Origin: Pedobacter metabolipauper
Lineage (GTDB): Bacteria; Bacteroidota; Bacteroidia; Sphingobacteriales; Sphingobacteriaceae
Assembly (NCBI RefSeq): GCF_004362715.1
Contig: NZ_SNYC01000004.1
Coordinates: 1,240,001 to 1,304,000 of the forward strand
DNA: 64,000 nucleotides
Direction of reading: 5' to 3'
This document shows positions 16,447 through 18,074 of the stretch, one piece after another (within the stretch, counting starts at the first letter, position 1; every line of letters starts with the position of its first letter). The notes beneath the pieces are model-generated. The model had not been told where the DNA came from. It searched no databases and worked only from the letters and a program-made list of their open reading frames with translations. The translations under genes and the position numbers were made by a program.

Positions 16447-16547
16447 ATTGTTATTTTTTAAGTGTTTATTTTCAGTTGCTTATGTGCTTTTAAAATTGAC
16501 TTTTACGCCATTGGCACAATTCATTGAATCATTCTGATTTTCTTCTG

Positions 16548-16579
16548 CAAAAGTAGGCAATAGTTTAACCAAATTCAAA
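16548..16579 (-). promoter_or_regulatory. ahcY promoter (Bacteroidota -33/-7 type)
   Basis: On the minus strand TTTG (16579-16576), a 20-bp spacer and TACTTTTG (16555-16548) match TTTG-N19-21-TAnnTTTG in full. Transcription would start near 16541, about 95 bp before the ATG. Confidence 0.7.
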
Positions 16580-16686
16580 AGTGAAATAAAAGACGGTCTT
16601 TATAATGGCTAAATTCTGCAATATTGATGTCATGGTTGTTTTGTGAAATTTTAATTAAGTTTACCAGAACCAACAAACAAATATTA

Positions 16687-17277
16687 ATGCGACAACTTTC
16701 AGAATGGTGGGAACAATCTAAGTTTTTAAACAACCTGATACCCGGCCTATATACATCATTGATTTTTTTATTAATGCTTTACTTCCTTAAACCGAGATTA
16801 AAGATCGGGAATAAAATAGCTTTGGAACTTTTTCCAAACGACCCGGCAGGCCAAACTCACCTTTATTCATTTAAAGTCATTAACAAATCCTTGTTTTTTA
16901 AAGTTTACGACCTGCACATTTGTGCCTGGGTTTCTAAAATAGAACCCTCCGTTAATGCAGATGACGTTTCCTATCAACCCATAAAAATAAGGAAGCAGTT
17001 TCAATGGGTCATACACAGGTTGTACGCCGGGCATTTTTTTCAAAAATTCTTAGCTAAAGATCAAAGGCTGGAAAGACGTACGGATTATGCCGCGCAATTC
17101 TCTACCTTTGAAGACATTAGGGGCATGATCGCTAATGGGCATTTTATTACAGTGGAGATATTAGCTAAACATTCGTTGACAGGATTTACAAGAGTAATCA
17201 CGAAGAAATATAAACATGTGAGCGATATCATAACAGGCACTTACTACAGCGGGAACTCTTGTGAAATAAAACCTTAA
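16687..17277 (+). CDS. Hypothetical membrane-anchored protein
   Basis: A 196-residue protein that I do not recognise with certainty. One transmembrane segment lies at about residues 17-35 (IPGLYTSLIFLLMLYFL), followed by a soluble domain of about 155 residues with beta-rich appearance. Segments such as YSFKVINKSLFFKVYDLHI and KHSLTGFTRVITKKYKH recall the cytoplasmic immunoglobulin-like domain of inward-rectifier K+ channels, but no pore helix or selectivity filter (GYG) is present, so that is a hint only. The ATG at 16687 is chosen because the upstream in-frame starts (TTG 16624, ATG 16627) add a poor-looking 20-residue extension. It is divergent from ahcY. Confidence 0.6.
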   Translation: MRQLSEWWEQSKFLNNLIPGLYTSLIFLLMLYFLKPRLKIGNKIALELFPNDPAGQTHLYSFKVINKSLFFKVYDLHICAWVSKIEPSVNADDVSYQPIKIRKQFQWVIHRLYAGHFFQKFLAKDQRLERRTDYAAQFSTFEDIRGMIANGHFITVEILAKHSLTGFTRVITKKYKHVSDIITGTYYSGNSCEIKP

Positions 17278-17300
17278 CAAACATATTTTACTTAATTATG

Positions 17301-17331
17301 TTGCATAAGTAAATAAGAAATGATATCTTTA
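17301..17331 (+). promoter_or_regulatory. Promoter of the candidate small RNA
   Basis: TTG (17301-17303), a 20-bp spacer and TATCTTTA (17324-17331) match the Bacteroidota TTTG/TAnnTTTG promoter at all but the last -7 base and the first -33 base. It lies directly upstream of the hairpin-terminator unit. Confidence 0.5.
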
Positions 17332-17337
17332 ACATAA

Positions 17338-17452
17338 GAACACAAAAATTAACCAAACTATGGACATCATTGTAAAATAAGTTCCTAAACTCAATAGTTG
17401 AGTTTGGTCAACCAAAAGATATTACTTAAGCCCTTTCGTTAGGGCTTTTTTT
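17338..17452 (+). ncRNA. Candidate ~115-nt small RNA (or micro-ORF transcript)
   Basis: A complete short transcription unit lies in a 386-bp gene-free region: promoter at 17301-17331, predicted start near 17338, and an intrinsic terminator ending at 17452. Inside are three pairings that share bases and so exclude each other: CCAAACT (17353-17359) with AGTTTGG (17401-17407); AAACTCAA (17387-17394) with TTGAGTTT (17398-17405); and TTTGG (17403-17407) with CCAAA (17412-17416). A six-codon ORF ATG-TAA (17360-17380, encoding MDIIVK) sits between them. I do not recognise a known RNA family; it could be an sRNA, a leader-type element or a micro-peptide mRNA. Nothing is seen from 17453 to 17596. Confidence 0.5.
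17428..17452 (+). terminator. Intrinsic terminator of the candidate small RNA
   Basis: AAGCCCT (17428-17434) pairs with AGGGCTT (17441-17447) across TTCGTT, followed by TTTTT. No annotated gene lies on + between this and 17277, so it appears to serve the small RNA. Confidence 0.85.
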
Positions 17453-17596
17453 GTGCACATTTGATTCTGTATCTTCACACCCGGCATCTTGTATTGGAGT
17501 TTATCGGTCACTTTGGATCAATAGATTATTCTACTGCCAACTATATGATACCAAAGTAATTTAAAGGTCAAAACTATCACATTGCAACTGTATTGC

Positions 17597-17627
17597 TTTG
17601 ATGCTATCTATTGACGCTGTACATTTG
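17597..17627 (+). promoter_or_regulatory. Promoter of the bacilliredoxin gene
   Basis: TTTG (17597-17600), a 19-bp spacer and TACATTTG (17620-17627) give a full match to the Bacteroidota TTTG-N19-TAnnTTTG promoter. The ATG at 17664 follows by 36 bp, so the leader is about 30 nt. Confidence 0.75.
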
Positions 17628-17663
17628 TAAACTGAAAAAAGAAATATTAAAGAATTTAAGCAT

Positions 17664-18074
17664 ATGTATCCAGAATATTTAGTTGAACCCATGCGTGCAG
17701 AACTTACTAAAGTAGGTTTTGAAGAATTAAAAACTGCAGAAGATGTTGATCAGGCCATCAGCACTGAAGGAACTGTATTTGTAGTGGTAAATTCTGTATG
17801 CGGTTGCGCAGCAGCAAATGCACGCCCGGCAGCACGTTTAGCTGCATCAAATGAAAAACATCCTGATAAATTGGTAACTGTTTTTGCTGGTATGGAAAAA
17901 GAAGCAGTAGACAGGGCAAGAGGTTATATGATGCCTTTCCCTCCGTCATCTCCTTCAATGGCATTATTTAAAGATGGTAAATTGGTTCACATGATCGAAC
18001 GCCATCAAATTGAAGGCCGCCCGGCACAAATGATTGCCGACAGCCTGATGGGTGCTTTTGACCAGTACTGCTAG
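17664..18074 (+). CDS. BrxA/BrxB-type bacilliredoxin (YphP/YqiW family)
   Basis: A 136-residue thioredoxin-fold protein of the YphP/YqiW family. The active site is the CGC motif, Cys46-Gly47-Cys48, in NSVCGCAAANARPAA, exactly where the family has it. FAGMEKEAVDRARGYM and MPFPPSSPSMALFKDGKLVHMIERHQIEGR are the other diagnostic blocks. In Firmicutes these proteins remove bacillithiol from S-bacillithiolated proteins; whether this strain makes bacillithiol cannot be judged from the window. The gene has its own complete promoter and a strong terminator, so it is monocistronic. Confidence 0.92.
   Translation: MYPEYLVEPMRAELTKVGFEELKTAEDVDQAISTEGTVFVVVNSVCGCAAANARPAARLAASNEKHPDKLVTVFAGMEKEAVDRARGYMMPFPPSSPSMALFKDGKLVHMIERHQIEGRPAQMIADSLMGAFDQYC

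Follow-up and report, generated by a model that had tools for sequence, protein, structure and literature searches.

A putative six-codon gene, conserved in some soil bacteria and in viruses of theirs, beside a membrane protein resembling potassium channels

Organisation of the locus

The window analysed here is a stretch of 64,000 nucleotides from Pedobacter metabolipauper (contig NZ_SNYC01000004.1). The gene order in the region of interest is pdxJ, ahcY (on the minus strand), an orphan open reading frame (ORF) at 16687-17277, a compact unit at 17301-17452, a bacilliredoxin gene (17664-18074) and then genes for an S10 peptidase and for a regulator of the TetR type. The bacilliredoxin has its nearest matches in Pedobacter. 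The orphan ORF and all parts of the unit that follows it lie on the plus strand. The orphan ORF encodes a membrane protein of 196 residues, with one long helix and a predicted cytoplasmic β-sandwich of the Kir type, as judged from its homologues, a structural model and fold matches. A possible promoter for this gene, TTG-N17-TAAGTTTA at 16636-16663, was picked out by eye, in the window only.

The unit opens with a promoter of the Bacteroidota type, TTG-N20-TATCTTTA, identified by pattern match at 17301-17331. It continues with an ORF of only six codons, ATGGACATCATTGTAAAATAA, running from ATG to TAA at 17360-17380 and encoding the peptide MDIIVK. On the 3' side of this ORF, folding predicts a local hairpin with a TAG loop (17385-17407), whose stem sequence is not conserved. 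The last element, found both by folding and by a hairpin scan, is an intrinsic terminator (17428-17452), with a stem at 17428-17447 followed by a run of T. A sequence-only reading of the window had placed these four elements at the same positions, and to that extent it stands, but it missed the partner: the membrane-protein ORF ends 82 nt before the tiny ORF. The explanation that we favour, held at about 0.6 as a whole and including the mechanism and spread proposed below, is that 17301-17452 is a stand-alone micro-gene, forming the second half of a two-gene module of which the membrane protein at 16687-17277 is the first half.

In 34 of the 80 bacilliredoxin loci that were fetched, ahcY lies divergently and upstream of the bacilliredoxin gene. 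The gap between the two genes differs among relatives in both length and content, and the membrane protein is absent from all 80 loci. For these reasons the membrane-protein ORF and the micro-gene together look like an insertion between ahcY and bacilliredoxin. The same observations bear on the possibility that the unit is a leader of the bacilliredoxin gene, which is ruled out by the terminator and by the absence of the unit from the 80 fetched loci; the earlier suggestion that the unit is independent of bacilliredoxin, with its own promoter and its own terminator, is borne out.

The gap itself (16447-17663 in the window) carries differing inserts in relatives, for example one of 586 nt with an inverted repeat (L021), or other ORFs (L023, L034 and L056), and is a possible insertion hot spot. 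The segment immediately before the bacilliredoxin gene (17549-17664) is kept in 7 of the 80 loci, with 73-79% identity. Within it, upstream of the bacilliredoxin promoter, is a AAAGTAATTTGAAGGTAAAAACTA-like stretch, possibly an operator.

The tiny ORF, its relatives and its transcript

A total of 16 homologues of the membrane protein were found, in 14 genomes and 2 viral contigs. The set was gathered by searching with the membrane protein and not via the peptide, the sole exception being L126, which was first seen by its peptide pattern and later recovered by protein as L149. Eleven homologues are full-length proteins of the main type and three (G208, G137 and G354) belong to a sister type; the others are G203, which has a diverged C-terminus, and G853, which is cut by a contig end. 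The membrane proteins are 38-60% identical to the window's copy.

All 11 full-length main-type copies have downstream of them a tiny ORF of the form MD-I-[IL]-x, in most cases MDIIVK. This peptide, with or without additional N-terminal residues, is encoded in the window, G190, G115 and G327 (MDIIVK), in G056 (MMDIIVK) and in vL126 (MKMDIIVK). The other copies encode MDIIAK (vL119), MDILVIKL (G283), MDIIIIKK (G285), MDIIVIEK (G272) and MDIIVIKM (G825). After the diverged membrane protein of G203 no peptide of the MD-I-[IL]-x type is found, and none is seen at G853, where the contig end cuts the copy. The G056 copy, whose membrane protein (54% identity) came from a search of 99 genomes of the genus with the orphan protein, is a good illustration: approximately 79 nt 3' of the membrane-protein stop is ATGATGGACATTATAGTTAAATAA, which encodes the same peptide in different codons.

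The pattern of nucleotide change was analysed for codons 2-5 in 10 copies, G190 being left out as a near-copy of G115. The pairwise differences at codon positions 1, 2 and 3 number 18, 9 and 96, and of the 110 differing codon pairs 84 are synonymous and 26 are not. The swaps beneath the kept amino acids are GAC/GAT, ATC/ATT/ATA and GTA/GTT/GTG. It is thus the amino acids rather than the nucleotides that are conserved, with the synonymous drift characteristic of protein-coding sequence, and the earlier proposal of a real six-codon ORF is upheld. The same result bears on the idea that translation matters here but its product does not, in other words that the ORF is a minigene whose effect is to recycle ribosomes, to sequester tRNA or to shield the 3' end of the mRNA for the membrane protein. 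A very short ORF directly 5' of a terminator would suit such a role, and E. coli minigenes and mccA are described as recycling ribosomes on one mRNA (PMC6495379). However, a role independent of the peptide would not keep MDII while the codons change, and we regard this explanation as unlikely.

In the stretches downstream of 436 other open frames of at least 150 codons, an MDI[IL] tiny ORF occurs only once, at L127, which is itself a locus fetched by peptide pattern. The DNA pattern for MDIIVK, ATGGAYATHATHGTNAARTAA, gives four matches in 399 genomes of the family, all four of them just 3' of the membrane protein, and a control with the pattern reversed gives none among the matches listed. Between the membrane-protein stop and the tiny ORF lie 24-90 nt, a distance not always divisible by three and leaving no common frame, which rules out a read-through tail of the membrane protein. 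Conservation of the amino acids, linkage and variable frame together support a separately translated peptide. On this comparative evidence 17360-17380 almost certainly holds a conserved gene for a peptide, with the membrane protein as its partner, and we infer that it is translated in cells.

The three sister-type proteins are also followed by tiny ORFs, encoding MKDTMVG (G208 and G137) and MKSKDTVLI (G354), and in the protein tree the type of peptide tracks the clade of the protein. This sister evidence is weaker, since two of the three copies are closely related and the third is very distant (the G354 row has a long branch in the tree). The two kinds of sister peptide have in common K-D-T and hydrophobic residues; their sites are after 2028 in L111 and L112, and at 2010-2090 in L152. 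In the four copies with a peptide of eight residues (L107, L109, L110 and L143), the membrane protein is extended at its C-terminus by a tail of some 10 residues. They form one clade, and so represent one event. Their gaps are short (24-36 nt) and contain no promoter match, so that the operon transcript is presumably the source of their peptide.

The -7 box of the micro-gene promoter in the window ends in A, unlike the Bacteroides consensus, given as TTTG at -33 and TAnnTTTG at -7 (PMC7366714), which ends in G. Counting both strands, the 64-kb window has 22 matches to the pattern TTG-N18-22-TAnnTTT[AG], the micro-gene promoter included, and the pattern turns up in 1.5% of trials in which the 75 nt leading up to the window ORF were resampled by a Markov model. 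Of 14 loci, 7 have a match 50-59 nt 5' of the tiny ORF (6 of them independent, since they include the near-copies G190 and G115), compared with about 0.2 expected over 14 loci from Markov resampling. In G354 the match starts within the upstream gene. The other seven loci have no match; among them are G327 (gap of 59 nt) and vL126 (gap of 85 nt). On the 3' side, a terminator or terminator-like hairpin is present in 14 of 14 loci, although in vL119 the call refers to the first hairpin, and there is a second and better one further on. The window terminator taken by itself is not above chance (1 found in the scan of the region, against a mean of 1.4 in shuffled sequences). The promoter and terminator that had been proposed for the unit are both supported.

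The sequence-only reading had further suggested that the RNA is a switch, with mutually exclusive pairings. The 116-nt RNA of the window folds with -23.3 kcal/mol (z -2.59 against 200 shuffles), and the segment AGTTTGG can pair either locally or with CCAAACT just 5' of the ATG. In the window this upstream pairing is stronger than in shuffled sequences (z -2.2), but it reaches a z of -2 or lower in only two of the 12 loci scored, which did not include vL119 and vL126; the two are the window and G285. A clear hairpin directly 3' of the ORF is found in about 4 of 14 loci (the window, G056, vL119 and, more weakly, G327), and the stem sequences of these hairpins are unrelated among loci. The switch is rejected on the grounds that its pairings are not conserved, the expected conservation of the stems in relatives was not found either, and no switch is needed to explain the unit. 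A TAG loop is present on the hairpin after the ORF in the window (17395-17397), in vL119 (L119, after 1953) and in G327 (L108).

A regulatory RNA of a more general kind, that is an attenuator, a riboswitch or a noncoding small RNA with alternative folds and with the ORF as a leader inside it, would account for the promoter, hairpin and terminator, for the fold score of the window, and for the recurrence of TAG-loop hairpins, on different stems, after the ORF in vL119 and G327. Against this, the alternative pairing stands out at so few loci, and at most loci the first hairpin is either poor or absent. Furthermore, a query with the 191-base unit against 99 genomes of the genus found, beyond its own copy, just short and low-scoring matches: 12 of the 99 genomes were matched at E 0.01, its own included, the others covering 23-69 bases of the query, and these scattered matches are taken as chance. 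Rfam has no match in the window at the gathering threshold, and below threshold the best of six matches in 17270-17670 has an E-value of 0.41. No regulated gene was found in the same transcript, because a terminator or a hairpin resembling one follows the ORF at all 14 loci and the neighbours downstream are unrelated (the flanking genes, compared by eye, are unlike between loci), and this leaves no gene to control in cis. A regulatory RNA is on these grounds very unlikely.

Distribution and the partner membrane protein

The membrane-protein family is rare. Matches to the protein were found in 10 of 399 genomes of the family, 3 of 145 of its own genus, and 6 of 149, 4 of 18 and 1 of 93 in three other genera, counts that overlap. 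A sample of the order gave 8 of 201, and a sample of the phylum 1 of 395, the single match there being the window itself. Two weak protein matches interrupted by stops, G074 at E 0.002 and G082 at E 0.008, were dropped before counting.

The neighbourhoods were surveyed for the loci other than G825 and G853. The vL119 copy adjoins genes for a phage integrase and for an endolysin, the copy in G056 is flanked by a tail fibre gene and a tape-measure gene, G283 has a baseplate hub nearby and G203 a major tail gene, and vL126 is carried on a viral contig. G354 adjoins HTH and HNH ORFs (named by eye). G190, G115, G327, G285, G272, G208 and G137, together with the window, have neighbours that look bacterial (by eye). 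By their gene content, some copies lie amid phage genes, and others, the window's included, appear to be isolated chromosomal insertions.

Collections of phage and plasmid records contain no match to the protein, and a scan of viral sequences with the single protein gave one pattern match and no relative. A search of viral sequences with the peptide pattern returned nine contigs, with the membrane protein in L126 alone. In L120 and L124 (identical in sequence) and in L128 the pattern is in other frames of longer ORFs, in L123 it is the end of a longer ORF, and in L127 it follows an unrelated ORF; these are put down to chance. L121, L122 and L125, all the same phage, have ATGGATATCATTGTTAAATAA (MDIIVK) just 5' of an ORF of the tail region, and the membrane protein is absent from the stretch examined; this could be an orphan peptide gene, and is taken as chance. 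A wider pattern for eight-residue peptides matched six contigs, which represent one AT-rich sequence with no membrane protein, and a search with the MKDTMVG pattern had no matches.

Carriage by phages, the length of a hexapeptide, the correspondence between peptide type and protein clade, and the presence of its own promoter would all fit a peptide that is secreted or exchanged as a signal, arbitrium-like in effect, with the membrane protein as its sensor or outlet, and by which phages sense their relatives. However, the module has no signal sequence, precursor, transporter or cytosolic receptor, and its membrane protein resembles a Kir domain and not an exporter. We therefore consider a signal improbable, and return to the two-gene module and its membrane component.

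Pfam, NCBIfam, PHROGs and PADLOC contain no matching family for the 196-residue protein. The main AlphaFold2 model, which rests on three sequences, consists of one helix (residues 12-34) and a β-sandwich, with a pLDDT of 70.4 and a pTM of 0.61. The best 50 matches listed in a Foldseek search of the PDB are all Kir-type channels (best E 3.5e-6), with TM-scores of 0.41-0.47 of the query. VIA-align gives a Z of 10.7 to Kir7.1 (9pr6_A, 117 residues, 3.0 Å) and of 10.2 to KirBac (2wll_B, 153 residues, 5.9 Å), in the latter case aligning model residues 1-196 with chain residues 120-308, that is with the inner helix and cytoplasmic domain. The predicted model (three sequences, pLDDT 70.4) thus has the fold of a Kir cytoplasmic domain. 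It has one long helix rather than two helices and a pore loop, and the filter motif T-x-G-[YF]-G is found in 0 of 11 aligned members.

In sequence searches, the Kir families of Pfam are not among the families listed for the 11 members at E-values up to 10, and a search of PDB sequences by profile found just AP-2, at E 0.77 and above. The best of the weak Pfam matches is Imm50 (E 0.0098, in 2 of 11 members). No PADLOC model of a known anti-phage defence system was matched: two of three proteins have no PADLOC family, and the third has a weak partial match to PD-T4-9_C (E 0.018). The protein is therefore predicted to be Kir-like in shape only, without what makes a potassium channel selective: a headless inward-rectifier look-alike, with the inner helix and cytoplasmic domain and with neither outer helix nor selectivity filter. 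The best match among viral models in BFVD is A0A2Z4GUI1, a viral protein of 176 residues (E 1.6e-5, TM-score 0.33), which on the basis of this model match is a possible further phage copy.

Proposed function and comparison with known systems

Our best guess is a two-gene module that is spread by phage and in which the peptide controls the membrane protein. The hexapeptide (f)MDIIVK would be the one product that can be recognised in the short transcript of the micro-gene, and a promoter of its own would supply the peptide in excess. The peptide probably acts on the membrane protein or together with it. How it might do so is more tentative. It may bind the cytoplasmic domain of Kir type, possibly by contributing an extra β-strand, and so set the state of a membrane oligomer, either holding a pore closed or completing or activating the oligomer; binding with a change of pore state is a suggestion to which we would give rather less than even odds. 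Kir channels have a short cytoplasmic strand at the N-terminus, which packs against the neighbouring subunit at its cytoplasmic domain. The membrane protein has no such N-terminal segment, and MDIIVK and MDIIVIEK have the look of a short strand; it is these two features that suggest a strand supplied in trans. When the L119 protein was modelled through its stop and natural spacer into the peptide, the linker and peptide came out disordered (block values of pLDDT from 21 to 35, with 28 in the block containing the peptide), so that docking has no structural support from this tethered model.

The module would spread with temperate phages of the Sphingobacteriaceae, and persist also as isolated chromosomal insertions. 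Such spread is as expected of cargo for immunity, exclusion or abortive infection, and it is close to an even chance, if slightly under, that phage exclusion, immunity or cell death is the function. In its most complete form, our hypothesis is that an unmodified six-residue gene product is a β-strand supplied in trans, which completes or plugs a headless Kir-type oligomer, that the whole is a phage-borne module for immunity or cell death in which the free peptide is the switch, and that joint divergence of the peptide and its receptor has given rise to types (MDIIVK, MDIIVI-x-K and the KDT type). In this full form the hypothesis is doubtful.

Six codons is at or below the usual floor for the length of a gene, and ordinary annotation is blind to such genes. 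The conservation of MDIIVK can be seen because its position is flagged by the partner protein. The MDIIVK gene would rank among the shortest protein-coding genes that clearly bear the marks of selection, and if it is translated and binds its partner, then selection in nature is able to maintain a gene only six codons long. The peptide would in addition be a very small natural ligand for a Kir-type domain, and the approach would be a recipe for finding other micro-genes, as conserved tiny ORFs 3' of orphan genes in phage cargo.

No paper on MDIIVK was found in the open-access literature (a collection without preprints and most subscription papers), nor, among the matches listed there, any description of a module of this sort. 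The nearest published likeness is mccA, the precursor gene of microcin C7. According to PMC6495379, this is a gene of seven codons that encodes a formyl-Met peptide and is followed by a terminator hairpin giving a short and abundant transcript, and because the gene is so short a ribosome can translate one mRNA again and again, an advantage from which the short MDIIVK transcript could, by analogy, also gain. Unlike MDIIVK, the McC precursors are described there as not conserved in sequence, and they are adenylated by MccB (PMC6495379); no such enzyme is found among the six genes scanned at the window. The parallel with the MccA heptapeptide raises the possibility that MDIIVK is itself the precursor of a modified product, with the membrane protein as its immunity or export partner. 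No modifying enzyme lies beside the window copy, where PdxJ, AhcY, bacilliredoxin, the S10 peptidase, the TetR regulator and the membrane protein were scanned, and the flanks, compared by eye, differ between loci; we regard a modified product as highly improbable.

Few-codon ORFs that function in phage DNA are also known in the bar minigenes of phage lambda, which act via particular codons and tRNA. The MDIIVK gene is like them in being a few-codon ORF found in phage DNA, and unlike them in that its codons vary while the amino acids are kept. Toxin-antitoxin, prophage exclusion and abortive-infection modules are typically two-gene units with a small second product that has its own promoter, with patchy spread and with carriage by phages. 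Compared with these, the present module differs in that the partner is a gene product of 6-8 residues, and in having no PADLOC family. The Kir and KirBac channels share with the membrane protein a predicted fold, that of the inner helix and cytoplasmic domain, and differ from it in having an outer helix, a pore loop and the T-x-G-[YF]-G filter, with no recognisable relationship in sequence. We know of no kind of system that pairs an unprocessed gene product of 6-8 residues with a one-helix Kir-like protein.
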